Source: a virus. Taken from it: a stretch of DNA of 64,000 nt. Positions 17,234 to 49,893 of the stretch are shown here, piece by piece (position 1 is the first letter of the stretch; every line of letters begins with the position of its first letter). The notes beneath the pieces are model-generated. The model worked only from the letters and a program-made list of their open reading frames with translations, searched no databases and had not been told where the DNA came from. Where the stretch lies: positions 1 through 64,000 of the IMG/VR virus record IMGVR_UViG_3300032240_000979. One strand, written 5' to 3'. A program made the translations under genes and the position numbers.

Positions 17234-19282
17234 TCACTTGCTAGTTGCGTGATAAACGCCGTCCCAATCTTTAGGTAAGTTTGTGGTTTTGAGTTCAAAG
17301 ATTCGGCTTTCCATCATCTCGTAATACTCAATCATCTTTAAATTTTCTATTTTTAATCTATTTAAATAGATTTCCGTTTCAGTCCAGTTCATTGCGTAGT
17401 AGAACTCCATCATCTTCTTGTGGTGAGAAACAATCTTATTTGCCTTTTCATCGTTCGCAATTACAGTGTAGATTTTCACACCTTCTTTCTTACCTTTGAC
17501 CGCGATGTTGTCTAGCTCTAGGAAATTGAATGAATTCTCGATGTCTTTTACGGTTTGTTCGCCAATGACGATTCCAACATGATAAGGTTTGCTTTGTCCT
17601 TCCAAGCGAGATGAGAGATTGACTGCATCTCCAAGGCAAGTATAGTCGAAACGATTTTCTGAACCCATGTTTCCAACTACAACGGAGCCAGAATTGACGC
17701 CAACGCCAATAGAAAGTTGCGGCAATTTTTCCAACGCGAGTTGTTTATTTAGCTCGTCGAGTTTCACGAACATCTCAACAGAGCACTCAATAGCTAATTC
17801 TTTGTGGCGCGCTACATCAACAGGTGCGTTCCAGAAAGCCATAACTGCATCGCCAATTAGTTTATCAACAGTTCCATCTTTGCTCATAACTAATTTCAGC
17901 ATAGGAGTCATGTAACGGTTTATCAGAGAAGTTAAACCTTGCGGATCAGTCTTGAAGTGCTCGCTGAGTGCAGTGAAGCCGCGAACGTCAGAGAAAAGGA
18001 TTGTCAAGTCTTTAGTTTCGCCGCCAAGTTTTAATAGTTCTGGATTAGATTGTAGTTTCTTGACCATTGCAGGAGCAAGATAGTGTTCAAACTGCTTTCT
18101 AATTTGTTGTTTCTGTTTAAATTCATTGATAAATCGCATGAACGCAGACACAGAGAAGCAGATGAAGAGAGCGGCAACTATCCAACTATAATCAAAGAGC
18201 AGTCCATTGCCAAAGGCTTTGACGCCATAAATGACTGGCGCAAGCATCAAACCGATGGATAATCCAGCGCAAACTAAGTAATTCAGCCAAATGAACGCGA
18301 CTATAACTAACAATGCAGCAAGAGTGCCATACAGAACCTCGTATAAATTAAATTCAGACGGTCTTTCGAGTCTTGAGTCATCTAGCAGCATTTGAGCGGC
18401 AAATAGCGGTATTTCGTAACCATTCTTGATATTAACCGATGTTGCGACAGTGTTGGAAAGACCTTCTGCTGTTGGCGCAATCATCACGATCTTGCCTTTA
18501 ACTGCTGACCAATCTTCTTTCGTGAATGAAAAAGAATCGAAGGTGTATTTGAAATTAAGCCAAACCCGCCCATTCTCATCAGTTTTAATTGTTTTAAATT
18601 TAGGAATACGAACAGCAGATACGCCAGCTTGATTAACTTTTGCTTGGTAACTTGGGTCATTTGAAGCTACGCGCAAAATTTCTAATGGCAGTGTTGGGTA
18701 AAACTCTTTGTTCATTTGAACGATCAACGGCAATCTTCTTACTACGCCATCAACTTCGGGCGCAGTTAAGAGCATACCAACGCCAGCCGCAACTTCACCA
18801 AGTTCTTTTGTCGGCCCAATCGCAGCAGAGTAATCAAATAGCCAATCATTGATGCCGCTGCCAACAACTGCTACGCCTCTTGGCACAGGCGAGCCTTTTC
18901 CTTTATTTGCCGCAGATTGACTAATGATTACAGGATATTTGCCAAAAGTTTCTTTTAGTGCGGCGTCTCCGTTGAATCGGTCATTCTCAGCAAAAATAAT
19001 TGGTAGCACAACAATTTCTGCACCGTTATCAAATGCTTTTGTTATTGCGTCAGCTAAGATTTGTCTTGGGAAAGGCCATTGACCATGCTTCTCAAGAGTC
19101 TTCTCATCTATCTCAACAACTACAACACTTTCGCTTTTTACTTTCTCTTGAGTGATTTGATAGTAGTCTAACGTTTTTAGCCTCGCAGTCTCAATGAAAA
19201 ATGGGTCTTTAACTCTTAAAGCTACTAGACAAATTAAAACTAACAGTGATGCTATTGCTGTATAGATTTTGTATTTCTTCAT
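17234..19282 (-). CDS. CHASE2-domain class III adenylate cyclase
   Basis: The 682-residue protein has an N-terminal membrane anchor (about 7-23), a periplasmic CHASE2 sensor (about 27-330, with VVVVEIDEKTLEKHGQWPFPR), about three membrane helices (about 335-410) and a cytoplasmic cyclase (about 425-605). The cyclase has both metal-binding Asp sites (LFSDVRGF and GDAVMAFW), the purine-contacting Lys before IGDAV, DYTCLGDAV with Thr at the second purine-selecting site, and the catalytic NLSSRLE with Asn and Arg. Lys/Thr is a known adenylate-cyclase combination, so cAMP is expected. About 80 helical residues follow. The ATG overlaps the fecR stop. It is the last gene of the curli-like operon. 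Confidence 0.9.
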   Translation of the reverse strand: MKKYKIYTAIASLLVLICLVALRVKDPFFIETARLKTLDYYQITQEKVKSESVVVVEIDEKTLEKHGQWPFPRQILADAITKAFDNGAEIVVLPIIFAENDRFNGDAALKETFGKYPVIISQSAANKGKGSPVPRGVAVVGSGINDWLFDYSAAIGPTKELGEVAAGVGMLLTAPEVDGVVRRLPLIVQMNKEFYPTLPLEILRVASNDPSYQAKVNQAGVSAVRIPKFKTIKTDENGRVWLNFKYTFDSFSFTKEDWSAVKGKIVMIAPTAEGLSNTVATSVNIKNGYEIPLFAAQMLLDDSRLERPSEFNLYEVLYGTLAALLVIVAFIWLNYLVCAGLSIGLMLAPVIYGVKAFGNGLLFDYSWIVAALFICFSVSAFMRFINEFKQKQQIRKQFEHYLAPAMVKKLQSNPELLKLGGETKDLTILFSDVRGFTALSEHFKTDPQGLTSLINRYMTPMLKLVMSKDGTVDKLIGDAVMAFWNAPVDVARHKELAIECSVEMFVKLDELNKQLALEKLPQLSIGVGVNSGSVVVGNMGSENRFDYTCLGDAVNLSSRLEGQSKPYHVGIVIGEQTVKDIENSFNFLELDNIAVKGKKEGVKIYTVIANDEKANKIVSHHKKMMEFYYAMNWTETEIYLNRLKIENLKMIEYYEMMESRIFELKTTNLPKDWDGVYHATSK

Positions 19283-20451
19283 CTCTGAGTAATGTAAACT
19301 TTACTTTTTTCACCGTAGTTTAAAACGTAAGCTTGACCATTAACAGTAACGGTAAAGTTAGCGTCGTATTTGGTGGTAAATTTGATTAGACCTTTATCAG
19401 TAGATAGAGACAATGAAGCGTATTTTCCGTCAGTAGTAAATCCGTTGTTAACAGTAGCTGTTGCTGATATTATATTATTTGTCTGAATTGGATTCATGAT
19501 TGAAGGCACTTCAACTTTAGGAGCTTCTTGAACTGTGGCAAAATTTGCAATAGTTGCAGGAACTTCGACTTTTGGAGCTTCTATTTTAGCGTCCAGTTTT
19601 ATTTGAACAACCTCCGCTACTTGTTTAGGCGGAGGCGGAGCATCTGTTGTTGTGCTTGCGGCTTCTGTTACCGATTCAGAAACAGTTTGTTGTGCTACTT
19701 GAGTTTTAGTATCGGCGGTTTTTTTATTTGATTTATCGTCTTTCTTGTCTTCGACTTTATCTTTTTCAGACAAAACTTTTTTTGTTTCTTTGCTATTCTT
19801 TGTGATAGATTTATTACTCTCTACCAGAAGACTATTATTAATCTTAGACTCATCATTTAAATCTAGAACAACTGGCGCTGTTGGATTAGAGAAAGCAGAC
19901 GAAATGAATGTTGCTTGGTAAGCCTGATTCAACACAACTGTACCACTAAAACTGCTAACTTCAATCGAGCCTACAACTGGCGGCAAACCAGTTAACGATG
20001 GAAGAGACGGCAAAAGAACAATTAAACTTTTACCGTCTTCTCCTACGCTCATAGAGAAATCAGTTCCTCTAACTGATACAACAGCAGTTGGAGTTTTGAT
20101 TTTTATATTTTCTCTATTATTCTTTGCTATTAGTCCAGAAGTATATCTGACTGTTCCTGATGCAGCTTTGATTGATAAAGAACCTTTGCCGCTAGATGGA
20201 TCATAAACAAACTCGTCGATTTTTAATTTAGAGAACTCTGTAATCTGGACTCTTGTATCGTCTTCAAAAGTAATGCCAACGCGAGATTGAAGTGTTTCGA
20301 TAGTATCGAACATCTCAACCCCAACGTTAGCTTTACCATCAATCTTGCTCTTATCTCTGGTAATTTGAGTTGGGCCAGTAGCCTCTACTATTTTACCAGA
20401 TGAACCAAAAAGAGATAAAGCCGTTAATAAAAATATAACGGCAAATCTCAT
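19279..20451 (-). CDS. FecR-domain protein
   Basis: The 390-residue protein has a signal peptide (about 1-17) and a FecR domain (about 25-160): TFEDDTRVQITEFSKLKIDE, then ASGTVRYTSG and TPTAVVSVRGTDFSM. A low-complexity Lys/Thr/Val/Pro linker (about 210-300) and a beta-rich C-terminus with VTVNGQAYVLNYG follow. FecR domains are periplasmic and often sit beside CHASE2-cyclases in bacteria, where a sensing role is assumed. The gene overlaps both the curlin-like gene and the cyclase, so co-translation is likely. It may respond to curlin export or to the cell surface. Confidence 0.85.
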   Translation of the reverse strand: MRFAVIFLLTALSLFGSSGKIVEATGPTQITRDKSKIDGKANVGVEMFDTIETLQSRVGITFEDDTRVQITEFSKLKIDEFVYDPSSGKGSLSIKAASGTVRYTSGLIAKNNRENIKIKTPTAVVSVRGTDFSMSVGEDGKSLIVLLPSLPSLTGLPPVVGSIEVSSFSGTVVLNQAYQATFISSAFSNPTAPVVLDLNDESKINNSLLVESNKSITKNSKETKKVLSEKDKVEDKKDDKSNKKTADTKTQVAQQTVSESVTEAASTTTDAPPPPKQVAEVVQIKLDAKIEAPKVEVPATIANFATVQEAPKVEVPSIMNPIQTNNIISATATVNNGFTTDGKYASLSLSTDKGLIKFTTKYDANFTVTVNGQAYVLNYGEKSKVYITQR

Positions 20452-25995: not shown

Positions 25996-27558
25996 ATGTC
26001 AAGGGAATCTAATCATAAAGCTAATTCGGAGTTATTTTCGCTGGAACCAACAGCGTTATTGGAGTTTTTCGTGATTTATTATGATTACGTTAATATGCCA
26101 GATGAGAAACTTTACATTCATGGCGGCACTAATGGAATTAATGGCTCAATCTATTGGCAAGGAGAAGAATATGTACCATTTCCTATTCAAAGTTCAGGTT
26201 TCGAGAGCAAAGGAGATGGAACACTTCCTAGACCAAAGTTAATGGTATCTAATCAGGACTTTTTCATGTCCAACTTGATTAGAAGATACAACAATCTCGC
26301 TGGTGCTAAGATAGTTAGAAAAAGAGTATTTCTCAAATTTTTAGACAATAGAAACTTTTCTGAACAGCGTAATCCTTATGGAACTGCCGATGCTAATGCT
26401 GGTTTAGAAGATCAAGTATTTTTCATTTTAAGAAAATCGAGCGAAAATAAAGCTGTTGTTGAATTTGAACTTAGTTCTCCACTTGAGTTAGAACACGTTA
26501 CATTTCCGAAACGTATTGTTATGGCGCGTTATTGTTCATTTCATTATAGAGGTAATGGTTGTCGTTACATGGGTCCACCAATAGCTAATGAATACGATCA
26601 AAGACTTTCGGCGGCAATGGATTTTAGAACAGGTATTCTTAAAAGAAAATATACTAACGATACACTGCCTCCTTTAGCTGGCGATCCTCCTGTAGATGTT
26701 ATTGAAGATTATCCAGATTTTTTTAACACAGATTTACGCAATTCTATTTATGTTGGTTCTTCAGAACAAGTTTTATCTGACATTACAATAGGAACCGCAA
26801 CGCAAAAATGTTTTACTGAGTTCTATGGATTTTTTAAAGTTGATCGTGGAGAAAATGGCAGTTATTCTTTTGGCATTGATGTTGATGATTCAGCAGAAGT
26901 ATATATTGATGGTGTTAAAATAGCTTATAAATATGGAACAGGGGCAATGAGAAATGAAAATTTACCTAGTGTTTTTAGCGTAATTGTTTCTAGTCCAAAT
27001 TTGGGAGTAGGTTATCATAATATTTTAATTAAACATTATAATTATTTAGGTGGCAATGGCTTTGATTTATATTATCAAACAGGAACTAATTTAGGAACAG
27101 CAACTTGGACAAAGGTTCCAGCTTCGCGTTATTATTATGATGTGACAGACTCTGGAAAACTTTCTTCGGCACAGAAATTTACATTTGATGCTTCATTAAA
27201 CAAATCAGTTGGAAATGATAGAGCTACATTACTGTCAGCTAAGAATGAATTAAAGTGGAAAAATAATGGTAACAGTTATAAAGTTGGCGATTTTGTATAT
27301 AGAGAAACAAGCAATATAAAAGTTTCTAAGAGCGATATTAATGAGGTGCCAAATTGGGAACCTCTCATGAAAGTGTATGTTTGCTTAAAGAACCATACAT
27401 CAGCACCAAATAAAGATCCATTATTCAATAAAGAATATTGGGTAGCTGACCAATGCTCCAAAACTCTCACTGGATGCAGAATGAGATTTGAGAACGAAGC
27501 CTCTCTACCTTTTGGTGGATTCCCCGGTACTGAAGAATACAGCATTAACGGACAATAA
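25996..27558 (+). CDS. Minor tail protein L homologue with PA14-like insertion
   Basis: The 520-residue protein begins with a gpL-like domain (FFVIYYDYVNMPDEKLYIHGG; FVMARYCSFHYRGNGCRY). It shows four Cys at about 180, 189, 487 and 494, as expected for the iron-sulfur site of lambda gpL. Between the two Cys pairs lies a PA14-like domain (about 265-380: YGFFKVDRGENGSYSFGID, DDSAEVYIDG, GYHNILIKHY, GFDLYY). A module with YKVGDFVYRE and KVYVCLKNHTSAP, resembling a CBM5/12-type sugar-binding motif, follows (about 420-485). The start has a clear AAGG-type ribosome site. It opens the plus-strand tail-tip run. Confidence 0.85.
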   Translation: MSRESNHKANSELFSLEPTALLEFFVIYYDYVNMPDEKLYIHGGTNGINGSIYWQGEEYVPFPIQSSGFESKGDGTLPRPKLMVSNQDFFMSNLIRRYNNLAGAKIVRKRVFLKFLDNRNFSEQRNPYGTADANAGLEDQVFFILRKSSENKAVVEFELSSPLELEHVTFPKRIVMARYCSFHYRGNGCRYMGPPIANEYDQRLSAAMDFRTGILKRKYTNDTLPPLAGDPPVDVIEDYPDFFNTDLRNSIYVGSSEQVLSDITIGTATQKCFTEFYGFFKVDRGENGSYSFGIDVDDSAEVYIDGVKIAYKYGTGAMRNENLPSVFSVIVSSPNLGVGYHNILIKHYNYLGGNGFDLYYQTGTNLGTATWTKVPASRYYYDVTDSGKLSSAQKFTFDASLNKSVGNDRATLLSAKNELKWKNNGNSYKVGDFVYRETSNIKVSKSDINEVPNWEPLMKVYVCLKNHTSAPNKDPLFNKEYWVADQCSKTLTGCRMRFENEASLPFGGFPGTEEYSINGQ

Positions 27559-27559
27559 T

Positions 27560-27922
27560 ATGAAATCTATAATTGATCATGCAGCTACATCTGACCTTGA
27601 AGTTTGCGGCTTTATTTGCATGGAAGATAACAAAGTTGTAACTGAACCAGCTAAAAATATTGCGATTTATGAAAACAACTTATTTGAAATTCATCCATTA
27701 GAGGTTGTAAAGAAAATCAGAAGCGGCAAGTTAATGGCGATTTACCATACTCATCCTTCGTCTGGAGAAGAAGAATCTAAGTTCGATAAATTCAACTGCG
27801 AAAATTCTTGTGTTCCGTATTTAATCTATAGCAAGCAAACAGAGAAATTTAATCTTTTAACACCAAAGATTCCTCACGTTAGCAAAGAATACGTTAAAAT
27901 ATTAAAGGAGATGTATGACTAA
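27560..27922 (+). CDS. Tail assembly protein K-like JAMM peptidase
   Basis: The 120-residue protein (start ATG at 27560) has CGFICME, then YHTHPSSGEEESKFD, the metal-binding JAMM set (His-x-His, Ser, Asp) seen in the N-terminal domain of lambda gpK. It lacks the C-terminal NlpC/P60 domain of full gpK, so it is a short version. It lies directly after the gpL homologue and overlaps the gpI homologue by eight bases. It probably helps tail-tip assembly or processing. The longer upstream frame would overlap gpL. Confidence 0.82.
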   Translation: MKSIIDHAATSDLEVCGFICMEDNKVVTEPAKNIAIYENNLFEIHPLEVVKKIRSGKLMAIYHTHPSSGEEESKFDKFNCENSCVPYLIYSKQTEKFNLLTPKIPHVSKEYVKILKEMYD

Positions 27923-30719
27923 TATATACCTGCACGGAGAATTGAGAAATCTTTACGGAGAGCATTTTAAGCTGAATATTGAATCAGCTAAAGATACTTT
28001 TCGCGCAATTAATTCTAATAGAAAAGGTTTTATTACTGCGGTTAAGAAATTAATGGCAAAAGGAGTTTTTTATAGAATTATTATTGATGACGAAATATTA
28101 AATGATCCTAAAGAGTTGGAAATACAAAGAATACCAAAAGAAATACATATTTTGCCTATAGTGTGGGGAGCTGGATCAAATGCAGGTAAAGGAATAGCTA
28201 TGGTAGTAGCAGCGGCGGCTTTAGCATGGTTTGCTGGGCCTACCGCATGGATGCTAATGATGGATATGGGTTTGAGCACAACCGCTGCAACCGCTGTTCA
28301 AGGAACTTTATATTCTATAGCTGGAGCTATCGCTATACAAGGAGTAATGACGCTTCTTTATCCGCCGCCAAAACCAGATTTTAATCAAGAAGTATCTGCT
28401 GGTGGCAAATCTTATCTTTTCGGAAGTAAACCCGGCAACGCTTCTCAAGGCCAAGCTGTTCCTGTTGGATATGGTAGATTAGTTATTCAATCGTCTCAAA
28501 TAAGCGCAACAGCAAACCACTATCCATTAGCAACAGACATTAAAACATTGATGACTCCTGTCGATATGCCTGTTAATGATTATACTGAAATTTTGGCAAA
28601 TGATGAAGCTCCTTCTCCTTATGGATTAAATGTAGATGGATTCTCTACAAACCAAGCTACAGACTTAGGAGATAGTCAAATCTTCTCTTCTATCAATTTA
28701 GTTAATTCTTATATCAATATTCTAACTACTAGCGTAGGCAAAGTAGCAAGCGATCCTGTTGAAGTTGTTGTCAAAACTAATGGAGAAGTTGTATCAAACC
28801 CAAATTTAGATACATACAATCCAGATATTAGTTATGAATGGAAAGAGATTTTAGCAACTACTCCTGGTGCTATTAAGATGGAAACTGCGTACGCTTTCAA
28901 TGATGGATTAGTTTATCGTTCTTACGATCCATTGTCATTTAGATTGAAAACTAATTTAGGAACTGGAAATTTAAATACTCAACCAAATTACTTTAATGTT
29001 TATGAAAGCGGCTCCTTGGTAAAATGGGGTCCAACCGAATTTAACGATTTAAATATAGGAGCTTGGGATAAAGATTATATCTTCAAGAAAAAAGAACTGA
29101 CTAACTATCAAGACCGTTATTTCTCTGCCATAAGAAATTCAATGGGCAAAGCTACAGTTAGTAGCGCATCTAGAGTTGGAAGCGTGGTAACAGTAACAAC
29201 AGCAAATTCTCACGGATTTTTAAATAATATTAATGTTAATGTATTTGAGTTAATTGGAAGCGGAGCTAATAGTTCTTACGCCAATGGAACTCACTTAATA
29301 TCTGTTACAGGTTCAGGAACAGGACAAACAAATTTTACATTTACTATTTCTGGAGCTAGTGGATCTGAAACATATACTACCTCTGCTGATTCTTATGCGA
29401 TAGCTACTGAACAAATCGCTCCTTTAAGTGGATCGACAATAAATACTGGATTTTGGTCTGAAATACAACCTCCGTCTAATCAATATATCTATAAATCATT
29501 AAGAACAAATACTGGTGTTATTCCATCTTTGGATACTACAGGTTGGAGTTTAATTACATCTCCAACAGCAGAAACAGGATTTAATGCTTTGACAAATAGT
29601 TTCCCAGCATTTTCTAAACAAGATATTTATGTTGGAGACGTTAATCAAACAAATTTACAAACAATCATTAATACAGATGGAGATAGAAACTCTGTAGATA
29701 ATTACATGATGGAATTTTATGGTTATCTATATGTAGAAATGGATAAAGATAAGATCATTGATGTTGTTGATGCTCAAAATGGAATAACTTACGAAATAAC
29801 CAAAATAGGTTCAACAGGTCAATGGGCAACTATTGGATTAACTGGTGCAGGTGGCACTCCTATCATGCCTGAACTTGGAATGACTTTCGTTAAAAATTCA
29901 ACGCCAGCTTTAACAGCGAGCAATGGAAAAGTTTATCCTGTAAGAAAATTTAATTTCAAGGTAGATTCTGACGATGCTGGCGATCTTCATATAGATGGAC
30001 AACTAGCAAGCTCGTATTACGATTCGCATGGATTCGCATTAAATAATATTCCAACTCCAGCAATAGCAGACATACCATCTACAACAACAGAGATAATGTT
30101 GACGGCAGGTTATCACCGTTTGAACGCTAGATTCCAAGATGGAATTGGTTCTGATGGATTAAGCATTTATTATAGATCCAAACTTGATGGCGAATCTTAT
30201 TCTGAATATCAAGTATTGCCGTCTTCTGTTTTAAAGCATCGTTCTTATACAGATTTATCTCAAAAGAAAAACGTCAAATTCTCTAATAAACGAGCTTTAA
30301 TTTCGGCTTCTTCAATGGTAGCTGGTAAAAAATACAAAATCGTTACTTTAGGAAGTGTTAATTGGAGTTCTATTGGAGCTAGTTCTCCAGTCGTAGGAAG
30401 TATATTTTATAAAAACAATACAGCAGTGAGCGGTTCTGGAGGATATGTATTTGAGGATTTATTTAGTCAAACCCAAATATCTTCTGCTGAATTTAATAGA
30501 TTAGTTAGATTTACTGCCGAAAGACCAAGTTCTGATTTATTTGCTTCGGCAAAATCTGGTTTATCTGTATATAAAGCAAAATGGCAATGCGTAGCTAAGA
30601 TTGGAGCATCTAATACACTCTATTCTTCGCCAGTCAAAATAGATGTAAAGTTCTTAAACTCTAATGCTCAAAAATCTGTATCAGCTTCCATCAGCGATCC
30701 TAGATCAATTAGCGAATAA
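27915..30719 (+). CDS. Tail assembly protein I homologue with long PA14-bearing extension
   Basis: The first 200 or so residues match lambda gpI: NIYLHGELRNLYGEHFKL, a Gly/Ala-rich membrane-like stretch (KGIAMVVAAAALAWFAG, TLYSIAGAIAIQGVMTLL) and SYLFGSKPGNASQGQAVPVGYGRL. Typical gpI ends near there, but this protein has 934 residues. The rest is beta-rich, with a PA14-like part (about 560-750: MEFYGYLYVEM, FKVDSDDAGDLHIDG, GYHRLNARFQDG, GLSIYY) and immunoglobulin-like segments (TVSSASRVGSVVTVTTANSH). The extension may bind glycans or the host surface. It is more likely a structural part than an assembly chaperone. Confidence 0.82.
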   Translation: MTNIYLHGELRNLYGEHFKLNIESAKDTFRAINSNRKGFITAVKKLMAKGVFYRIIIDDEILNDPKELEIQRIPKEIHILPIVWGAGSNAGKGIAMVVAAAALAWFAGPTAWMLMMDMGLSTTAATAVQGTLYSIAGAIAIQGVMTLLYPPPKPDFNQEVSAGGKSYLFGSKPGNASQGQAVPVGYGRLVIQSSQISATANHYPLATDIKTLMTPVDMPVNDYTEILANDEAPSPYGLNVDGFSTNQATDLGDSQIFSSINLVNSYINILTTSVGKVASDPVEVVVKTNGEVVSNPNLDTYNPDISYEWKEILATTPGAIKMETAYAFNDGLVYRSYDPLSFRLKTNLGTGNLNTQPNYFNVYESGSLVKWGPTEFNDLNIGAWDKDYIFKKKELTNYQDRYFSAIRNSMGKATVSSASRVGSVVTVTTANSHGFLNNINVNVFELIGSGANSSYANGTHLISVTGSGTGQTNFTFTISGASGSETYTTSADSYAIATEQIAPLSGSTINTGFWSEIQPPSNQYIYKSLRTNTGVIPSLDTTGWSLITSPTAETGFNALTNSFPAFSKQDIYVGDVNQTNLQTIINTDGDRNSVDNYMMEFYGYLYVEMDKDKIIDVVDAQNGITYEITKIGSTGQWATIGLTGAGGTPIMPELGMTFVKNSTPALTASNGKVYPVRKFNFKVDSDDAGDLHIDGQLASSYYDSHGFALNNIPTPAIADIPSTTTEIMLTAGYHRLNARFQDGIGSDGLSIYYRSKLDGESYSEYQVLPSSVLKHRSYTDLSQKKNVKFSNKRALISASSMVAGKKYKIVTLGSVNWSSIGASSPVVGSIFYKNNTAVSGSGGYVFEDLFSQTQISSAEFNRLVRFTAERPSSDLFASAKSGLSVYKAKWQCVAKIGASNTLYSSPVKIDVKFLNSNAQKSVSASISDPRSISE

Positions 30720-30724
30720 ACTAT

Positions 30725-31585
30725 ATGAAAATACTTAATCCATATAGATTTTTTAAAGGAGCGTTTGGTTCTGGAACTAATGCTTCTACGCCACAATTAA
30801 TACCGCCAACTAGCGATGTAAATTTATTAAAATCAATATCTATATTTGAATGCGTGGATTTGCTTTGCGAAGGACCAATCTACGGATTGGTAGATCAATT
30901 TGGCAAAAAGATATATGGTTTAGATATGCTCAAAGGTATTTATCTAAACGATACTCCTGTTATGAATTATAAAGGAGAGTATAATTACAGAAATGTAATG
31001 ATGGAAATTAATCTCGGTACAGAAAACCAAAAAGCTTTAAATAACTTTAAAAAAGTATATATAGCTCGCCCAGCAAACTTTAAGTTACTTGGACCAATAA
31101 GTAGTGCAGGAGAACCTTTGGATAATAGACCCGGCGGTAACTTCGTTGATTGGGCCAAGAACAGCAATGGATGGCCGACGCAAGATCAAGATCCTTTTAT
31201 ATTCATCCATAAAATTAAAAATAAAGACGTTAAAAAATTAAAAGTTAGTTTAATGATTGAACAACTTTTTGATACAGTTAGCGAAGGAAACACAAAGGCT
31301 GGATTAGGAACAAACAAAGCTACTAACTTACAGTTAAACATTAAATATGGATTAGATGGTGGCACTAACATAACAAATAGAACAGTATCTATTAACGGTT
31401 ACGTTCAATCTCCATACGGATTAATGATTGGAGATGGATCTAGTTTAGGAATTGGTGGAACAGTAAATTCTAATGTTACAAGCACAACAAGTAATTCTGG
31501 TGGATCAGGCGGATCTACATATAATAACGAAGGAAATAGAAGCTGGAATACATATACAAATGAATGGATGACAGGAGAACCATAA
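30725..31585 (+). CDS. N-terminal part of tail tip attachment protein J
   Basis: The 286-residue protein has SISIFECVDLLCEGPIYGLV (about 38-57), the usual near-N-terminal block of gpJ, then GIYLNDTPVMN and MMEINLGTENQ. The C-terminus (about 250-285) is Gly/Ser/Asn-rich (SNSGGSGGSTYNN) and looks like a linker. gpJ normally runs on from here; instead the gene stops, a 187-residue unrelated protein follows, and gpJ resumes at 32165. This is a split tail-tip protein. Confidence 0.78.
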   Translation: MKILNPYRFFKGAFGSGTNASTPQLIPPTSDVNLLKSISIFECVDLLCEGPIYGLVDQFGKKIYGLDMLKGIYLNDTPVMNYKGEYNYRNVMMEINLGTENQKALNNFKKVYIARPANFKLLGPISSAGEPLDNRPGGNFVDWAKNSNGWPTQDQDPFIFIHKIKNKDVKKLKVSLMIEQLFDTVSEGNTKAGLGTNKATNLQLNIKYGLDGGTNITNRTVSINGYVQSPYGLMIGDGSSLGIGGTVNSNVTSTTSNSGGSGGSTYNNEGNRSWNTYTNEWMTGEP

Positions 31586-31586
31586 T

Positions 31587-32150
31587 ATGGCTATACAAAA
31601 AACACAAGCAGAAAATATAGCTTTAGGAATCAGTCCAAGAAATTATTCGGCCATCTTATCAACTATTTATGATTTAAATGATAAGGCTGTAAGCAATTAT
31701 GTTCCAGAAGCACCGAATACAATTGTTTATTCAAATTCCGTTATTGGTGAAGGTTCTTCTCATAAAACATTCAATACTTTAGCTTCTGGTTCGTTCGTCA
31801 AAGGAGATACCATAACTGTTTCAGGAAGAGCTTCTTATCTAATTTATAGTGGATATACTACTATAGCAGAAAAAGCGGCGATTAAAATTGTAGCTCAAAT
31901 TGATTTTGGACGCTATTCTTCAACGTATCAAGCTTATTCTTGGGAAGCGTTAGCAAGTGAAATTGTATCCGATGGAGCAAATGTAGGTCAATTTTCTTTT
32001 GAAATTCCATCAAGTATCACTAGTAAACTAGCGGTTGCCGATGATCACTATTTAACAATTAGAGCAACATCTCCAGATAATGCTTTTGTTCAGTTAACCG
32101 CAAGCGGAACAACGGATAATGTAAGAAAGTTTGCAATAACTGCATCTTAA
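31587..32150 (+). CDS. Virion-type beta-rich protein inserted in the J region
   Basis: The 187-residue protein begins MAIQKTQAENIALGISPRNY and continues with SGSFVKGDTITVSGRAS, IKIVAQIDFGRYSS and FSFEIPSSITS, a beta-sandwich look with many Ser and Thr and no Cys. It is placed between the two gpJ pieces with one- to fourteen-base gaps, so it is likely a tail-tip component. No specific family is recognised. Confidence 0.6.
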   Translation: MAIQKTQAENIALGISPRNYSAILSTIYDLNDKAVSNYVPEAPNTIVYSNSVIGEGSSHKTFNTLASGSFVKGDTITVSGRASYLIYSGYTTIAEKAAIKIVAQIDFGRYSSTYQAYSWEALASEIVSDGANVGQFSFEIPSSITSKLAVADDHYLTIRATSPDNAFVQLTASGTTDNVRKFAITAS

Positions 32151-32164
32151 AAATATAATAATTT

Positions 32165-35100
32165 ATGAACGATATAGACAACCAATCATCATCAGTAGAA
32201 GGCGATATTAGCCCAATCGTGCAGAACGATATGCTATCCGCTGATATTGTGTTGCCGCCATCTGTAAATGGAAAAGATCGTTTTATTGCAATAGAAAAGA
32301 AATCACCAGAAACAATCAATCCGCTAGTCAAAAGAGAAGTTAGTGTTGAGGCTGTAATAGAAGTTATAGATAGAAATTTTTCTTATCCAATGGCGGCTCA
32401 CGTTGGATTGAAATTTGATTCCAGAACATTCTCTAATATTCCTTCAAAGAAGTTTGATGTTAAGATGAAGAAGGTTAAGGTTCCTTCTAATTATTATCCA
32501 ATCGGCGGCAATGGTTTAGATAGAAGATACGTTTATCCAAATCCTGATTATGATGCAGACCCAAATACATTAGATGTTGTATTCATGGTTGATCAAAACA
32601 TGAATTTTGCAACTAGAGCTTTATTAAAAAGAAATTTAAAAGACATAATTTCTAAATTAATCTCTGGTTACAAATATACAAGAGCTTCTATTTGGCAAAC
32701 CTCTAATACCAAAAATACAATCATTGATAAGTCTAGCGGAGATACTATAAATAACTTTACTTATTATCCAGAAAATGATTCTAATCAAGGAGCATTTTTT
32801 GAAGTGGAAACTCCTGATTCGGATGGAACAAACAATACAAATCTTTATAAGAAATTATTTGACGCTTTAAGTTTGACTCAAATCTCTACAAATCCAGATG
32901 AAACTATTATTGCTAATTATTTCTTAAGAAAAAGTCAATTTGCTATTACAGATACAGTAGGAACATCAAGCGAAACCGCAACTTTAAGACACGTTTGGGA
33001 AAATACTGTTAGAAAGATAATATATTTTTCTGGATCTACTCCAGAAACAATGACGCAAAATACTTATGACATATTGCTTTCTCATGCAAGAGAAAACTGT
33101 GTTAGCGTTTATTATTTCCATAATGATTCAGATTTTTCTGGAACAAGAACTTTAAGAGAACTTGCGGAAGATACAGGAGGCGGAAAATTCTCTATGCTCC
33201 ACGATTCAGACGTTAAACTGACTCAATTCTGCGATAATAATTTTTACGACAGTAACAAAATATACTACGGAGATTGGGATGGAACATTTAAGATTGCTTG
33301 GACAGACAATCCTGCTTGGGTGCTATATGATATTATTACTGATCCTAACTATGGATTAGGTAATTATATTGATTCTAAAGCAGTAGATAAGTGGACATTA
33401 TACGATATTGGACGTTATTGTGATTGTGTTGATGATGATGGAAGATTCAGAGGAGTTCCAGATGGCAAAGGCGGCTTAGAACCAAGATATACTTGCAATA
33501 TTATCTTCTATAACAAAGATGAAGCTTACAATGTATTGAAAGATATTTCTGCTGTTTTTAAAGGCATCTTATATTGGACAACAGAAGGATTCTCATTCTT
33601 CGCTGATATGCCAAAACAAGCTGTAATGCAGTTTGCTAATTCTTCAGTAAAAGACGGAGTTTTTAATTACGAAGATACAGCAAAAAATTTACGCTATACT
33701 TCTGTAGAGGTAACTTATAATGATAGATATGATTTTTACAAACCAAAAGTAGAATACGTTGAGGATTCGGAAGGCATAATTAAATATGGATTAAATCCAT
33801 TCAAGATTAACGCAGCTGGATGCACATCAAGATCAGAAGCAAAACGTATTGGCAGATATGTTATGTCAACTTCTATGCACGAATCAGAAGTGGTGACATT
33901 TACCGCTGGTATTGAAGGTTCTTATCTTCAAATCGGAGATTTGTTTATGGTTAGCGACGAAATTAAAAACGTTGCAAGAACTTTCGGAAGAATACTTGAT
34001 GTAGATTCAGCAAATAAAACAATCAAAATTGATGGAGAATTCCAAGAAGGTTTAGCTTCTGGAATCTTTGTCCATATTCCTTCTGGAAACTATAAAGTAT
34101 CTGATTTAAATCGCCTGAATAATTCTGATGGCAATTTTACTGGAACTTTAGAAAACATCAGAGCTAGACGCCAAAGTCAATTAAAACAATTAAATATCAA
34201 GCACGTTCAAGATGATACATACGGATGTACCTTGACCGTTACTGGCAACTTCTTAATGGATTCTGTCATTACAGACGTTCACTTAGAAGAAGGAAGATAT
34301 TCTGGTGCTGTTACAACTGGAGGCAGCGTTTTGACAGGAATTATTTATACATTCCCTGAAAATACCGTAGTAGATGGCAATCCAACTTGGGACACATTAT
34401 CTTATCAACAAGTAACTGGCGTATTTAATCAAGTTGGACTTGATGTTGATCTAATCGGAGAAGCTGGGACAGGACAGTTAATCGCTCCTGTTGCAAATAA
34501 TTGGTTGGGCAAAATCGACTATAAGCTCAATGGATCAAATTCATTTTTCTATACAAATGGTTCCGCGCAAGTAGAAGTTAATACTAATGCTATTGCTATC
34601 GCAGAAATATCCGCGACTAATGGTTCTAGAATTAACTCTGGAACAGTATCTAATTTAGATGATGTATGGAGTTCTTCTGTATATACTTCAGCGACAACAG
34701 GAAATGTCATCGCTATTTTCTCAAGAGGAGCAGTAATAAGTAATTCATACGCCGCATCTAACGCTAATTGGAAGAATCTTGCGGCAACAGAAGTATTTAA
34801 AATTGGTAAAAATATATCCGCAACATCAACTTCTTTTGGGTATGCTGCGGCATTTATCAAAGGTGGATACAGAATTATCGAAAGAGCCTCTAAGAATCTG
34901 AGCGATCAAGGAAGTTTAACCTTCTATTACAGAGATTTATTAGCTTTAAGTAAACTACGTCCATACTACACAATTTCTCAAGCTGATATTGGAAATAATC
35001 AAGCTACGAATCTTAAAGATTGGACATTCGATTTCCCATATAAAGTTGGAGACAGAGTAAAGAATAACGGAAATGTTTATTTGTGCGTTCAAGATCATAA

Positions 35101-37777
35101 ATCACCAGCTACATTTGAAGTTGGAAATAAATGGACTGCTGGAAATTCTTTGGGATATTCGACTTATGGATTTCCAAAAAACTTTTATGTAAAAAATGCA
35201 GAAGGAAACAAGATACCAACTACAGAATCTTTGACTTACGAATCAATCTATTGGACATTTAGATCATTAGGAATTAGCAAAATTCATGTTGGAGAAGGTC
35301 CACTCGGAGAAAGCAATTTAGCTACACTCGCAGAAAGCGAAGGATTAGGTTATAGCGGATTGATTTACGGAACTGGTTATCCTATTGGTTATTATAATTT
35401 AAACGTAGATACATCAGCAAGGCATTTAGATTTGCTTTCTGTTGGAAGTTCTTATGTGTTGAGTGGTTCTGGCGTTGAGCCAAAATACTATAAAACTATC
35501 GCAACAAAAGAAGAAGAAACAAATCAATATAGTATTGTTGGACTGCAATATATGCCAGATAAAGAAAGCTTTGTTGAAAGAGAAATTGCGGATAATTCAC
35601 CAAGCCAATATATTTCTTCGCCTTACGATAAGATCATAAAACCAGATCCAGTATCAGCTATCACAAATACAGGAATATACGGAGGAACTGGATTAGATGT
35701 TACTTGGCAGCAGGTAACAACTACGCCAATTAACGGTTATAAAATTTATGTAAGCAGACCAGACTATTCAAATAGTAATGATTCCGCTTTAACTGAATTT
35801 TTTGCTGTTCCATCTGGAACTAATAAAGTTACTATCCCAATAAACGAAAAATGGGGCCAATACGATATTGATATTTATAGTCAAGGAATTACTCCGTATA
35901 AATTCTTGTCTGATGGAGCTGCATCAATAGCTATACAAGTTTTACCAGAGCCAACGCTGCAAATTGGCGGAACAACAGTTAATTCTGTATTAATAAGCGG
36001 AATTAAATTAGATACAGCTGACACAGATAGCTTGAGATATGATATTGGTTATAAATCTTCTGCTTTTTGCTTTACTGGCGTTGGCGCAGGTAATTTTACA
36101 TCTGCTGATTTAACATTTAGATGGAAGTATATTGATCCGACAGGAGGAATAGTATCGAATGTCGATCAAATGAGACGTAATCCGTTTGTTGAATTTCCGC
36201 CAAAAGTTACTTTGGAAATTATTAATGAAGGTGGAGCGGTCTTAGAAACAGTAAAACAATATCAAGGATTCTCTTACAGAATAGATGAAAATGCTAATAA
36301 AAAATTAGTCAGCAGAGAACAAACTAACTATCAAAACGTACAAGCGTCCAGAAACTTAGGTCTTAGAATTAAAATTGAAGATACTAACAATAGATCATTT
36401 ACTGGAATTTACCAAGCAAATAATGTTATTCCTTCATATCAAGAAATCGAAGTTATAGATTCTTATCAGAACTCGCCGTATCAAATTCTTTCTGGTATCT
36501 ATGGAAATGAATCTTACCAAAGATTAGCTGTATGGAACAGCGGCGTAAATAACGTAGTTACTGGTTCTGGATTAAGAAATAGTGCTGGTATGTTATTAAG
36601 AAGCGAAGAAGAAACAGATGTTTCTTATGGAGATATTGTCTTTGCGTTTCTTAGCGCAACAGGTTTCAACGGAGTGGACGAAGGTGCTACTCCTTCTGTT
36701 GCTGGCATCACAATCAATTACAGAGGCGACGGTGATCCAGATTACGAAGCTTACGTTAATTTGTACGGAGATTTATTGAATTTTTACAATAAGAATGTCG
36801 ATAAATCAAAATCCAAAGAAGTTTTTGGATTAGAACATTATACAGCTTACGGACAAAATGAAGGCAGAGAACTGCCGAAAACTAAAAATAATCCAATGGG
36901 AATAGCTGATTTAAATGCTGTTCCTAGTAACAAAGTAGGATTTTCTGGAATTGCAATGACAGTTCTGCCAGAAAAAGTATCGTTTAATAAAGTTGTATTT
37001 AATTGCTTTTCCGCAGTGTCGAATAAAGATATCTATAAAGTAGATATATATACAGGTGATGCGTCTGATTTCGTAGCTGATACATCAAAGAAAACTAACT
37101 ATCATAAAGAATATATAATTAATGATACTAGAAAGTATCTTAATGTAATAGAATTAAGCGACGAATCAATAGAAAGAGAAAAATGGTATTACTATAAATT
37201 CTTACCTTATGATGATTTCGGCGTTGGTATTATGTCTCCTACTTGCAGCGGTTATTTAATTAACGAAGCAAGAGAAAGTATAACAAAATCATACAAGAAA
37301 AAAACTCTTAATGGAAATGCCGATGAAGGTAATATTGATGCGGCTAATATGGTTCAAGATGTTAGATATAAAATTGTAACACTAGGAACAATCAACTGGA
37401 ACGTAATTGGGCTTAATGCAGCCACAGTAGCGGAAATAAATGTAGAATTTATTTACAACGGAGAAACTATAACAGGAAGCAACGGCGTAGTTCAAAGAAT
37501 AGAAAAACCTGAAATCATCGCACCAGCAGAAATTGACATATTCCATATTTTTGACACAAAGAGTAATTCTACTGTTGTAATTCCAGAAGATGTTGTAGAA
37601 GGTTCTACGTTAAACTTTGTAAATGTTGGAGAACACGATATTTATGTCAACAATCCAGACGGAGATACAGCTAACGGTGAAAGTATAACTGTATTGAAGC
37701 CTAAAGAAAGAGTTGAACTATTTAAAGTAAACGGAATCTGGATTGACCCAAGAGGAGACAACCTCTACTTGGATTAA
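32165..37777 (+). CDS. Tail tip attachment protein J (main part) with a VWA-like insertion
   Basis: The 1870-residue protein starts with gpJ-type PMAAHVGLKFDSRTFSNIP (about 75-93), then a VWA-like domain (about 136-355: LDVVFMVDQNMN, RALLKRNLKDIISKLI, KIIYFSGSTPETM, RTLRELAEDTGGG). It resumes with WDGTFKIAWTDNPAWVLYDI and PNYGLGNYID (about 371-405), typical of gpJ. The MIDAS motif is degenerate (D-x-N-x-N instead of DxSxS). Further on are a glycan-binding-like module (PYKVGDRVKNNG) and fibronectin-like repeats. The C-terminus (about 1500-1870) is probably the receptor-binding end. It overlaps the nrdB stop by four bases. Confidence 0.85.
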   Translation: MNDIDNQSSSVEGDISPIVQNDMLSADIVLPPSVNGKDRFIAIEKKSPETINPLVKREVSVEAVIEVIDRNFSYPMAAHVGLKFDSRTFSNIPSKKFDVKMKKVKVPSNYYPIGGNGLDRRYVYPNPDYDADPNTLDVVFMVDQNMNFATRALLKRNLKDIISKLISGYKYTRASIWQTSNTKNTIIDKSSGDTINNFTYYPENDSNQGAFFEVETPDSDGTNNTNLYKKLFDALSLTQISTNPDETIIANYFLRKSQFAITDTVGTSSETATLRHVWENTVRKIIYFSGSTPETMTQNTYDILLSHARENCVSVYYFHNDSDFSGTRTLRELAEDTGGGKFSMLHDSDVKLTQFCDNNFYDSNKIYYGDWDGTFKIAWTDNPAWVLYDIITDPNYGLGNYIDSKAVDKWTLYDIGRYCDCVDDDGRFRGVPDGKGGLEPRYTCNIIFYNKDEAYNVLKDISAVFKGILYWTTEGFSFFADMPKQAVMQFANSSVKDGVFNYEDTAKNLRYTSVEVTYNDRYDFYKPKVEYVEDSEGIIKYGLNPFKINAAGCTSRSEAKRIGRYVMSTSMHESEVVTFTAGIEGSYLQIGDLFMVSDEIKNVARTFGRILDVDSANKTIKIDGEFQEGLASGIFVHIPSGNYKVSDLNRLNNSDGNFTGTLENIRARRQSQLKQLNIKHVQDDTYGCTLTVTGNFLMDSVITDVHLEEGRYSGAVTTGGSVLTGIIYTFPENTVVDGNPTWDTLSYQQVTGVFNQVGLDVDLIGEAGTGQLIAPVANNWLGKIDYKLNGSNSFFYTNGSAQVEVNTNAIAIAEISATNGSRINSGTVSNLDDVWSSSVYTSATTGNVIAIFSRGAVISNSYAASNANWKNLAATEVFKIGKNISATSTSFGYAAAFIKGGYRIIERASKNLSDQGSLTFYYRDLLALSKLRPYYTISQADIGNNQATNLKDWTFDFPYKVGDRVKNNGNVYLCVQDHKSPATFEVGNKWTAGNSLGYSTYGFPKNFYVKNAEGNKIPTTESLTYESIYWTFRSLGISKIHVGEGPLGESNLATLAESEGLGYSGLIYGTGYPIGYYNLNVDTSARHLDLLSVGSSYVLSGSGVEPKYYKTIATKEEETNQYSIVGLQYMPDKESFVEREIADNSPSQYISSPYDKIIKPDPVSAITNTGIYGGTGLDVTWQQVTTTPINGYKIYVSRPDYSNSNDSALTEFFAVPSGTNKVTIPINEKWGQYDIDIYSQGITPYKFLSDGAASIAIQVLPEPTLQIGGTTVNSVLISGIKLDTADTDSLRYDIGYKSSAFCFTGVGAGNFTSADLTFRWKYIDPTGGIVSNVDQMRRNPFVEFPPKVTLEIINEGGAVLETVKQYQGFSYRIDENANKKLVSREQTNYQNVQASRNLGLRIKIEDTNNRSFTGIYQANNVIPSYQEIEVIDSYQNSPYQILSGIYGNESYQRLAVWNSGVNNVVTGSGLRNSAGMLLRSEEETDVSYGDIVFAFLSATGFNGVDEGATPSVAGITINYRGDGDPDYEAYVNLYGDLLNFYNKNVDKSKSKEVFGLEHYTAYGQNEGRELPKTKNNPMGIADLNAVPSNKVGFSGIAMTVLPEKVSFNKVVFNCFSAVSNKDIYKVDIYTGDASDFVADTSKKTNYHKEYIINDTRKYLNVIELSDESIEREKWYYYKFLPYDDFGVGIMSPTCSGYLINEARESITKSYKKKTLNGNADEGNIDAANMVQDVRYKIVTLGTINWNVIGLNAATVAEINVEFIYNGETITGSNGVVQRIEKPEIIAPAEIDIFHIFDTKSNSTVVIPEDVVEGSTLNFVNVGEHDIYVNNPDGDTANGESITVLKPKERVELFKVNGIWIDPRGDNLYLD

Positions 37778-46529: not shown

Positions 46530-47516
46530 TTAACTACGCCAAAGAAGATAGAAGCCTTGAATTGTTTTGTCAAGTGTTTCTTCGATAAAAAGTTTATCTT
46601 TTATTTTTGAATAAAACATTTGAGATTTATTTATGTAAGTTGATAGTTTTGTTGGATTTGCAACTCCAAAAGTCATAAATTCAGATACTATCTTTGAATT
46701 CATGTAAGCAAAAATAAATAATTCAGCAGCTTCTTTTAGCGACAAAAGCTTTTCTTTATCTGCCTCGTAGATAGAAACGAATGATTCAAAATCAGAATCA
46801 GAACAATTCAAAACTTCTTTAGCTAACCAAATATCAATATATTTATTAGCGTTTGCAGCATATTCAAAATTTATGAATTTAAATTCATTTCTAGAAAAGA
46901 TGATGTTAGACAAATCTAAATCAAAATGGCAAATTGCACAATCAGATAGCGATGGAGTGTAGATATTTTTGAACCGAGATTTTACGGCACCAAATAATTG
47001 AGCCACTGGAAATGTATGCTGTATGATAGCAGATTCCATAGGCAAAAAGGAATTTATAGTTTCTAATGTTTCGTCTTTACTGGAAGAAGAAAACGAATGA
47101 ATCTTTTTCAAATCTCTCGCAAAAAAAGATTCTAATTTTAATCTCGGACTTAAAAGATATTTTGAAATATCAGACGCGAAAATTCCTTTAGGCATCTCAA
47201 AGCATATATAATTAAAATCTCCAGATAAATCATAGGAGACTACGCTAGGATGAAACGGAAAATTATTTAAACAAAGCTTATCCCAAAAATTAGGAATGAA
47301 AGGAGATAAGTTTACCTTGAGGACAAACGCACGCTTATCAGAAATTATCAGATAAGAATCATAAAGAGGACTTCTAGAAAATCTTTCGCAACTATCTATT
47401 TTTATATTTGCATGAGATTCTATTCGGCTTTTAATATAGCCGAGCATCTCCAATTCAATTGGCAACAGAGTGTTGTCTTGAACTGTGTGCTGTAAAAAGT
47501 TTTTCTTTTGTTCCAT
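46530..47516 (-). CDS. Aminoglycoside/choline kinase-fold protein
   Basis: The 328-residue protein contains CHFDLDLSNIIF, the HxDxxxxN catalytic loop of small-molecule kinases of the APH/choline kinase group, followed by FINFEYAA, where the metal-binding Asp position of the (D)FE motif is Asn. The N-lobe has RAFVLKVNLS with a likely ATP-contact Lys. If that Asn is real it may be weakly active or inactive. The start overlaps the Clp gene end by 62 bases; an internal ATG at 47447 would avoid this. Confidence 0.68.
   Translation of the reverse strand: MEQKKNFLQHTVQDNTLLPIELEMLGYIKSRIESHANIKIDSCERFSRSPLYDSYLIISDKRAFVLKVNLSPFIPNFWDKLCLNNFPFHPSVVSYDLSGDFNYICFEMPKGIFASDISKYLLSPRLKLESFFARDLKKIHSFSSSSKDETLETINSFLPMESAIIQHTFPVAQLFGAVKSRFKNIYTPSLSDCAICHFDLDLSNIIFSRNEFKFINFEYAANANKYIDIWLAKEVLNCSDSDFESFVSIYEADKEKLLSLKEAAELFIFAYMNSKIVSEFMTFGVANPTKLSTYINKSQMFYSKIKDKLFIEETLDKTIQGFYLLWRS
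46545..46573 (-). promoter_or_regulatory. Strong sigma70-type promoter for the gene at 46307-46525
   Basis: TTGACA (46568-46573) and TATCTT (46545-46550) are exactly 17 bases apart on the minus strand. Both lie within the last codons of the kinase-like gene. The expected start is about 13 bases before the ATG. Confidence 0.72.
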
Positions 47517-49893
47517 TGACTTGTATCTCGTTATCTTTAATCTTTACCTTGATCTGATTATACGAGCTACACGCCAAACTGTCAACTATCTTTGTTTTAA
47601 GTTCGTTCTCAATAAAGAAGATTACGCCTCTAGCGCCATTTTTAGAATCCTTAGCCTTAGATAAGATGAAGCTAACAACTTCTTTAGAGAAAGATACTGT
47701 TGTGTCATTAGCTTTTAAAGAAGCTTTAATCGACTCAAGTTCGGTTTCAGCAATCTTAGATAAAGACTCTTCTTTTAAGTGATCAAAGATAATTACATCA
47801 TTTAAACGAGCCAAGAATTCTGGTTTAAAAAATCTTTTTAATTTCTCTTGAACGCCTTCTTTAGAGATGGCTTCTTCCGCTGGAGCGCAAAATCCGATTT
47901 GCTTATTGTCTCCAAACTGGAATCCAACATTGCCAGTCATAATCAAGATGCAGTTTTTGAAATTAAGTTTTCTACCATTTGAATCATTGAGTTCTCCATT
48001 ATCCATTACTTGAAGTAAAATATTAACAACGTCTGGATGCGCCTTTTCAATTTCATCAAATAAGAAGATAGAAGATGGACGTTTCTCTAATTGGTTAGAG
48101 AAGATGTTTGATTTGCCATGCCCAACATAACCAGGCGGGGAACCAATGAGTTTTGAAACGGAATGAGGTTCCATAAACTCAGACATATCAATTCTAACCA
48201 AACTTTCTTCACCACCAAACGCTTGTTTAGATAATACTTTAGCTAAGTAAGTTTTGCCAGAACCAGTTGGGCCAACAAACATAAAGCTTCCAAGCGGTTT
48301 ATTAGTGGATGATAATCCAAACGAAGAACGCAAGATACAGTCGGAAATCTTCTTTAATGCTGCATCTTGTCCGAAAACGTGCTTCTTCAACTCATTGTGG
48401 ATATTTCTAAAGTTAGAATCTTGAACATTGGTGTCGATAATAGACCCAACTTTTTCGCATAGAACTTGATAAACGTCTTTGCGAGTAGCTGTTACTTTTT
48501 TGTTTTCTTGCAGCTTCATCCAAGATTCAAATTTTGTTTTATATTCTGAAACGATACTATCCATCTGAATATTTTTAGATTCTTCAGATTCAAATAGTCC
48601 GTCAGACTGCTCTAGTTCATAAATTATCTTTTCGATCTTTTTGATTTCTTCTGATCGGGCATAAGTCTTAATTTTAACTTTAGCTCCAACTTGATCTAGA
48701 ATATCAATAGCTTTATCTGGAAACCTTCTATTAGGAATATATTTGGCGCACAATTCGATTATATCGCTAAGAGTTTCATCAGGAAACTTGATCTTATGGA
48801 ATTCTTCATAGTACAGTTTAATGTTCTTTAGGATATTAAGAGTTTCTTCTTTGTTCGGCTCTTTAACAAAGACAGGTTCAAATCTACGATTCATTGCAGA
48901 ATCTTTTTGGAAGAACTGCTCGTATTCCTTTTGGGTGGTTGCGCCAATGCAACTGATATCATCGGTAGCAAGATATGGCTTGAGGATATTTGCAGTATCC
49001 AAAGAACCTTCATCGCCACCAAGACCAATCACAGTGTGGATTTCATCAATAAACAGAACGATTGATTTAGCTTCTTTGACTTCTTTTAAAACTTTATGAA
49101 GGCGTTCTTCAAATTGACCTCTAAGATTAGTACCAGCAATCATCGCTGTCATATCTAATTGCATGATTGTTTTGCCTAAAAGAAATTCAGTAGATTCACC
49201 GCTAATAATTTTCTTAGCAAGTAATCCAACGATAGTGCTTTTACCAACGCCAGCTTCACCAATTAGAATTGGATTACGCTTTTGCTTGCGGCAGAGCACT
49301 TCTGAAACTTGAGCGACTTCGGCATCACGAAAACAAGCGTTATCAAAATCGCCGTTCTCTGCTTTCTCTGTAAAATTTATGCAAAAATCTTTTAAAATAC
49401 TGCTAGACGAAGAAGATGTAGTTGGTGATGATAGTTTTTTAGTTGGATTAGAAACAGTTTTGCAACCAGATTCAATTTCGTTGGTCAAAAAGATAATATC
49501 TACGCCTTGAGATTTAAAAAACTTCTTAGCATAAGAAGAATGGCGAAGCATAGAAAGGAAAAGATGCTCTACGCCAGTATAATTTTGATTATAGTAACGA
49601 GAAATCTTGTAGGATTCTTTTATTACCTTAATAACCGAATCGGTATAATCTACATTAGACTTTTTGCGCTTTTTTTCTGGAAGTTCTTTTTCTAATCTGT
49701 TAACTAGTTCTGATGGAAGAACTTTTATCTGCTCAAATGCGTTATCGACAATCATCGATTGTGACAAAAGCAAGGCGTAAAGCATAAAAGACTCGTCAAT
49801 CTCGACGTAATTATGACTTAGACACTTTTGTTTGGCAATGTCTAAGAGTCTTTTTACTTTTGGAGTGAAGTTAACGTCTTCCACTTTATTCAT
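47455..49893 (-). CDS. Clp/Hsp100-type AAA+ unfoldase (ClpA/ClpC-like)
   Basis: The 812-residue protein has a Clp N-domain (about 1-150, with TPKVKRLLDIAKQKCLSH and TGVEHLFLSML). AAA1 has LIGEAGVGKS and VLFIDEIH; a short charged middle part is followed by AAA2 with FVGPTGSGKT, IFLFDEIEKAHP and PEFLARLNDVI. An IGF tripeptide lies after GDNKQ, where ClpA and ClpX carry the ClpP-docking loop. No peptidase gene is seen here, so it may dock with host ClpP and redirect proteolysis. It is upstream of the kinase-like gene. Confidence 0.88.
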   Translation of the reverse strand: MNKVEDVNFTPKVKRLLDIAKQKCLSHNYVEIDESFMLYALLLSQSMIVDNAFEQIKVLPSELVNRLEKELPEKKRKKSNVDYTDSVIKVIKESYKISRYYNQNYTGVEHLFLSMLRHSSYAKKFFKSQGVDIIFLTNEIESGCKTVSNPTKKLSSPTTSSSSSSILKDFCINFTEKAENGDFDNACFRDAEVAQVSEVLCRKQKRNPILIGEAGVGKSTIVGLLAKKIISGESTEFLLGKTIMQLDMTAMIAGTNLRGQFEERLHKVLKEVKEAKSIVLFIDEIHTVIGLGGDEGSLDTANILKPYLATDDISCIGATTQKEYEQFFQKDSAMNRRFEPVFVKEPNKEETLNILKNIKLYYEEFHKIKFPDETLSDIIELCAKYIPNRRFPDKAIDILDQVGAKVKIKTYARSEEIKKIEKIIYELEQSDGLFESEESKNIQMDSIVSEYKTKFESWMKLQENKKVTATRKDVYQVLCEKVGSIIDTNVQDSNFRNIHNELKKHVFGQDAALKKISDCILRSSFGLSSTNKPLGSFMFVGPTGSGKTYLAKVLSKQAFGGEESLVRIDMSEFMEPHSVSKLIGSPPGYVGHGKSNIFSNQLEKRPSSIFLFDEIEKAHPDVVNILLQVMDNGELNDSNGRKLNFKNCILIMTGNVGFQFGDNKQIGFCAPAEEAISKEGVQEKLKRFFKPEFLARLNDVIIFDHLKEESLSKIAETELESIKASLKANDTTVSFSKEVVSFILSKAKDSKNGARGVIFFIENELKTKIVDSLACSSYNQIKVKIKDNEIQVNGTKEKLFTAHSSRQHSVAN

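Follow-up and report, generated by a model that had tools for sequence, protein, structure and literature searches.

In phage lambda, gpJ is a single chain running from HDII-ins1 to the fibre and is encoded last in the gene order L-K-I-J. One of its hub domains, FNIII-A (HDII-ins2), spans residues 72-215 according to PMC10721106. In Pfam the same domain covers residues 86-207 of lambda J. This domain of the lambda hub moves during tail opening. Other tails show that one hub can be divided among genes differently. Excerpts of PMC10721106 and PMC10038345 describe pb3 of phage T5 as a single chain equivalent to gpL, gpI and the N-terminus of gpJ, with lambda gene I corresponding to the insertion point of the pb3 plug domain; they describe no VWA domain in pb3. 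In gp13, gp14 and gp15 of the Rhodobacter capsulatus gene transfer agent (RcGTA), an HDII-insertion domain is shared by two proteins (PMC10721106, excerpt), although that split lies between gpL-like and gpJ-like proteins and not within FNIII-A. Here we describe another partition of the lambda-type hub, found in a 64,000-nucleotide stretch (the window) that is part of the 66.7-kb IMG/VR virus record IMGVR_UViG_3300032240_000979. In the window, gpJ is encoded as two chains, N286 (286 residues) and J (1870 residues), with a separate gene, P187 (187 residues), between them. The cut falls inside FNIII-A, and J carries a VWA-type domain at the position of lambda residues ~250-258.

The gene order L-K-I-J, the homologous hub domains and the presence of FNIII-A are shared with lambda. 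Positions 25996-37777 of the plus strand form a lambda-type tail-tip operon for gpL, gpK, gpI and gpJ, in this order, and the three genes upstream of gpJ match Phage_tail_L (3.7e-54), JAB and tail assembly protein I (phrog_32, 3.2e-30), respectively. A first-pass annotation, made by a model from the letters and open reading frames (ORFs) of the window, had placed the N-terminal gpJ block in a 286-residue gene with a Gly/Ser end and had let gpJ resume after the intervening gene. Profile matches agree on both counts: N286 corresponds to the N-terminal gpJ block (phrog_1727, 2.8e-15; phrog_31, 2e-13), and J matches gpJ from residue ~359 onward (phrog_31, 2.6e-107), with Phage-tail_3 (PF13550) recognised in its hub at 4.6e-18. 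That annotation had overlooked that the cut falls within one domain. When the two chains are aligned with the undivided gpJ of lambda, KS9, PMBT14, S-CBS4 and a Mannheimia phage, a comparison that it had proposed, the halves align continuously, and the cut lies between '..G..xSxY' and 'LPP..' (lambda residues 160-174), at about lambda residues 163-171. J residues 25-112 continue FNIII-A and HDII-ins1. Joined, and with the VWA domain removed, N286 and J align unbroken over the cut to tail-tip proteins of the PDB with E-values from 1e-72 to 2e-57 (7e-61 for lambda J, 8iyk). N286 alone matches the first part of FNIII-A_GpJ at 5e-4, under the Pfam cut-off; on joining the halves, the match grows from profile positions 17-81 to 17-125 of 126 (1.2e-4; 22.7 bits, the curated cut-off being 27). 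Homology to the gpJ-type hub thus extends over HDII-HDIV and FNIII-A, and no single polypeptide runs from HDII-ins1 to the fibre, which makes the protein a variant and not a typical gpJ member. The split gpJ is a variant of the lambda-type hub, not a new kind of system. Of the C-terminal domains of lambda gpJ, Ig_J, Phage_Tail_Tip and Ig_GpJ_C gave no Pfam match in J. At about 36800-37000, J contains a segment, DYEAYVNLYGDL...HYTAYGQNEGREL, which we take to resemble a repeat of other surface proteins.

J continues in the reading frame of N286, as it would if the split were a frameshift, a sequencing error or the decay of a J gene. We give such an origin practically no credence: the J frame contains about 20 stops across P187, and the identical three intact ORFs are found in all relatives long enough. 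These relatives come from scans of uncultured virus contigs with VWA, P187, N286 and hub queries, which yielded over 200 loci (several per contig). N286, P187, J and the VWA domain are present in the same order in every locus long enough, in none of them fused, and each locus without one of the pieces ends at a contig edge. The intact split loci amount to 55 distinct P187/VWA protein sets. Several genes have broken frames at once in one contig alone (L052), which suggests that this contig was poorly assembled. Since every sufficiently long contig shows the complete layout in unchanged order, the split is not a sequencing error. The uninterrupted gpJ in close relatives, which the first-pass annotation had named as the finding that would speak against its claim, did not turn up in any locus long enough. 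Among isolated phages, 1534 records match the joined query, 808 of them over at least 80% of its length. All 60 rows sampled along this ranking are single-piece, with no cut and no large insertion where these sites are spanned. J of Escherichia phage P-GXEC-L2P5 is annotated in several coding sequences; this looks like annotation or assembly breakage, and the record was not used. P187 and the VWA domain have no sequence match in 50,697 phage records, and a pattern-based scan of bacterial and archaeal genomes found no VWA-bearing J.

The shared frame of N286 and J could also be read as a sign that the two are joined into one gpJ by translation (frameshift or bypass) or by protein splicing. This appears very improbable, since the start Met of P187 is invariant, its gene is preceded in this genome by a Shine-Dalgarno-like AGGAG, and, here as in most relatives, the J frame opens only past the P187 stop, the two genes being 10-19 nucleotides apart. 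P187 is also devoid of intein or intron features. To our knowledge, 560 bases are far beyond known translational bypassing. Fusion by frameshift or bypass was therefore rejected on frames, stops and starts. Shine-Dalgarno-like motifs precede only 10 of the 62 ORFs of the window. The 10-19 nucleotides before J (32150-32165 here) lack a Shine-Dalgarno sequence, and in many relatives they include a TATAAT-like motif that is rich in AT.

The second departure from lambda is an insertion of ~250 residues in J. It lies between 'VPSNYxP' (lambda 245) and 'YxGxWDGTF' (WDGTF at lambda 260), a site occupied in other phages by a loop of some ten residues. A VWA-like insertion between two conserved gpJ blocks had been proposed at residues 136-355. 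The flanking blocks and the fold are borne out, whereas the limits are wider (J113-J365), and 136-355 corresponds to the core. An AlphaFold2 model of the insertion, built from 25 sequences (predicted local distance difference test, pLDDT, 74; predicted template modelling score 0.79), is a clear Rossmann-like alpha/beta fold with the VWA order of strands and helices, and Foldseek retrieves the VWA fold with an E-value of 1e-6 (prob 1.00). The best structural matches (Z 12-14.5) are a TFIIH subunit (Z 14.5; root-mean-square deviation 3.5 A; 178 aligned residues), followed by Sec23/24 and Rpn10. They are cellular proteins with 9-18% identity to the insertion, and the common fold does not show a common function. 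Several VWA domains of this type are protein-binding scaffolds without a working metal ion-dependent adhesion site (MIDAS). In sequence searches, Pfam VWA is weakly visible in two of 25 relatives (best 5e-4). PF00092 has no match in the genome itself, a PDB profile search with the insertion gave no VWA match, and hhalign, with a shallow profile, found no match to E. coli YfbK. The VWA identity is settled by the fold search, which matched where the sequence searches did not.

As had been noted from the sequence, the MIDAS is degenerate. At positions placed from predicted secondary structure, the insertion has D143-Q-N145-M-N147, T225 and S289 (J numbering) instead of D-x-S-x-S, T and D, so that the T is kept and the second D is replaced by S. 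The equivalent D, N145, T and S are invariant in all 19 sequences and N147 in 18 of them. To compare conservation, relatives were grouped into bins of hub identity. The most distant of these bins (hub 74%) has mean identities of 65% for the flanking block, 63% for VWA, 57% for N286, 50% for the middle of J, 47% for C-terminal J and 46% for P187. The VWA domain is thus conserved like the hub, the opposite of the usual variable receptor-binding head. Our literature search found no VWA domain in a phage tail tip, and the VWA protein that Vi01-like phages possess is not listed with their tail proteins. A VWA domain on another phage-tail-derived machine has been reported in the tail fibres of extracellular contractile injection systems (eCIS; PMC12923769), although there it belongs to fibres and is not inserted in a siphophage hub.

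These data bear on the role first proposed for the VWA domain, a protein-binding head for host recognition. Protein binding is plausible, the loops on the MIDAS face being the most conserved part of the domain. The host-recognition label is not supported: the domain lies in the hub cone, and its identity is similar to that of the flanking hub and above that of C-terminal J. A partner within the virion is at least as good a fit as a receptor on the host. The pattern of conservation is better suited to a docking part fixed at the tip than to a host-binding head that varies, and the best reading of the VWA domain is a conserved docking part on the hub cone (HDII-ins1/HDII region), not a C-terminal fibre or receptor-binding part. 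As the other of the two readings in contention, it is possible, though distinctly less likely, that both additions are host-adhesion heads, with VWA binding a host surface protein and P187 serving as an extra receptor- or glycan-binding Ig module. VWA and Ig domains commonly bind proteins, the eCIS fibres offer a parallel, and other domains of adhesion type occur in this tip, namely PA14 in gpL and a CBM_5_12-like segment in J. Yet the VWA identity follows the hub and not the variable C-terminal J, the domain is inserted in the hub and not in the fibre, and the canonical MIDAS residues are missing.

P187 was first described as an unrelated, beta-rich gene, which agrees with our searches and model. 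Searches of Pfam, PHROGs, PDB sequences and phage records gave it no convincing match, and neither a functional family nor sequence relatives outside this virus group were found. In the model, the N-terminal helices are poorly determined and the Ig-like sandwich is well determined, with structural matches of generic kind up to Z 8.8 and phage matches in BFVD at 3e-4. A precedent for a small Ig-fold structural part is T5 p132, in excerpts of PMC10721106 and PMC10038345 an Ig-fold collar protein that anchors fibres. No sequence relation of P187 to p132 was detected; p132 and BppU are absent among the listed structural matches, which excludes nothing. In one relative (L048:3836-4603), P187 has an extra insertion of ~70 residues near the start of the sandwich. 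Most likely, P187 is a small structural component with an Ig-like fold at or near the split FNIII-A, a placement suggested by analogy because lambda gene I sits at the plug position of T5 pb3. P187 might instead be an assembly chaperone that holds the hub halves until they are joined but is not part of the mature virion, as has been proposed for lambda gpK. Its strict position between the halves in all relatives would fit such a role, as would the observation that gpK, a gene product of this same cluster, was not found in the lambda virion. We nevertheless regard it as improbable, since the Ig-like sandwich is typical of structural or decoration parts of phages and P187 has no similarity to a known tail chaperone.

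On balance, and with a modest preference, we interpret the locus as a re-partitioned lambda-type hub whose two chains complement each other in FNIII-A, with P187 and VWA as conserved tip components for docking. N286 would supply the first HDII-ins1 strands and the first half of FNIII-A, and J the remaining FNIII-A, the other hub domains and the fibre. The two would most likely associate by completing one beta-sandwich, and a trimer of N286+J pairs would stand in for the gpJ trimer. The two-chain FNIII-A is likely functional and held by strand pairing. The free ends of N286 and J would leave one FNIII-A loop, directed outward and flexible. The VWA domain would be a fixed element that decorates the flank of the hub cone, its conserved MIDAS-side face docking a conserved partner without the canonical metal site. 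This partner would more probably belong to the tip itself (P187, the extensions of gpL or gpI, a side fibre) than be a variable receptor on the host. Several points weigh against this interpretation. The second half of FNIII-A contributes just ~2 bits to the Pfam match, and we infer the complementation of N286 and J rather than read it from a modelled complex. P187 is tied to the tip by gene position alone, and its Ig match is generic, Z ~8 being in the range that the tool calls common. The higher conservation of VWA loops on the MIDAS side than on the opposite side (entropy 0.43 versus 0.82; one-sided p 0.018) was obtained with face classes that we set from predicted secondary structure, and a conserved VWA face would also fit a conserved component of the host surface. 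One may add to the re-partitioned hub a trigger or latch, in which P187 keeps the split FNIII-A clamped until the phage adsorbs, while the signal is sensed or passed on by the VWA face and its re-tuned metal site; we consider this further layer rather unlikely.

As far as the libraries searched show, the combination of a split gpJ with a VWA-bearing hub is real, conserved and apparently undescribed. It extends the known re-partitioning of siphophage hubs (T5 pb3 versus lambda L/I/J) to a cut within a single beta-sandwich. A further addition is the VWA domain in the hub of a lambda-type tail, seen in a widespread uncultured group for which no cultured counterpart was found. The viruses concerned are a family of uncultured bacterial viruses, probably from freshwater. 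They provide a clean natural test case for whether two chains can form a tip domain that moves when DNA is ejected. In such phages, the N-terminal chain is overlooked when J is annotated as a single long gene. The features of the locus are listed in Table 1.

Table 1. Features of the tail-tip locus, in window coordinates.
Feature	Position	Strand	Evidence or remarks
gpL (HDI + 4Fe-4S domain, PA14-containing insertion)	25996..27558	+	
gpI with C-terminal extension of ~730 residues	27915..30719	+	phrog_32 on residues 1-199
N286, N-terminal gpJ chain: HDII-ins1 strands and first half of FNIII-A	30725..31585	+	
FNIII-A, first half (N286 residues 160-231)	31202..31417	+	PF24801 positions 17-81/126, E 5e-4
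N286 C-terminal tail, variable, Gly/Ser-rich, free end at split	31418..31582	+	alignment
P187, separate gene between gpJ chains	31587..32150	+	invariant start Met; in every relative long enough
P187 N-terminal region, residues 1-51, predicted helices 7-12 and 21-37	31587..31739	+	pLDDT 53-64
P187 Ig-like beta-sandwich, residues 52-187	31740..32147	+	pLDDT mostly 80-93
J, C-terminal gpJ chain, 1870 residues	32165..37777	+	
FNIII-A, second half (J residues 27-69)	32243..32371	+	
HDII-ins1 continuation to conserved VPSNYxP block (J 70-112)	32372..32500	+	lambda VPSNY at 245
VWA-type insertion (J 113-365; fold proper about J 133-365)	32501..33259	+	MIDAS equivalents D143, N145, N147, T225, S289
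gpJ hub domains HDII/HDIII/HDIV (J 366-660)	33260..34144	+	phrog_31, phrog_1727, Phage-tail_3
CBM_5_12-like segment, C-terminal part of J (J 953-992)	35021..35140	+	E 1.7e-5, just below Pfam cut-off

Other proteins of the tip also contain additional segments. The insertion in gpL comprises ~300 residues with the PA14 domain and lies within the 4Fe-4S domain, separating its two cysteine pairs, C180/C189 and C487/C494. The gpL of relatives aligns across this region, and a CBM_5_12-like segment was recognised in the insertion by eye. Because the PA14 insertion sits between these cysteine pairs, the hub of this group appears to be decorated by insertion into loops. The C-terminal extension of gpI has segments in common with gpL and J (BLASTP). 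gpK (27488-27922) consists of the JAB domain alone, an NlpC/P60 domain being unmatched in Pfam and PHROGs profiles. Outside the tail-tip operon, the minus strand at 17234-20451 encodes a protein with CHASE2 and adenylate/guanylate cyclase domains (Pfam 1e-38 and 1.5e-23; phrog_35576 over the full length), adjoining a gene for a FecR-domain protein. Among isolates, the nearest versions of the CHASE2/cyclase protein, at ~40% identity, are those of Methylophilales phage Melnitz and Pelagibacter phage HTVC008M. This phage-borne gene for cyclic-nucleotide signalling gives a weak lead to the host. The window further encodes an rIIA/rIIB pair, a UvdE-type UV endonuclease and a Clp-like AAA+ ATPase, at 8322-11601, 12270-13175 and 47455-49893.

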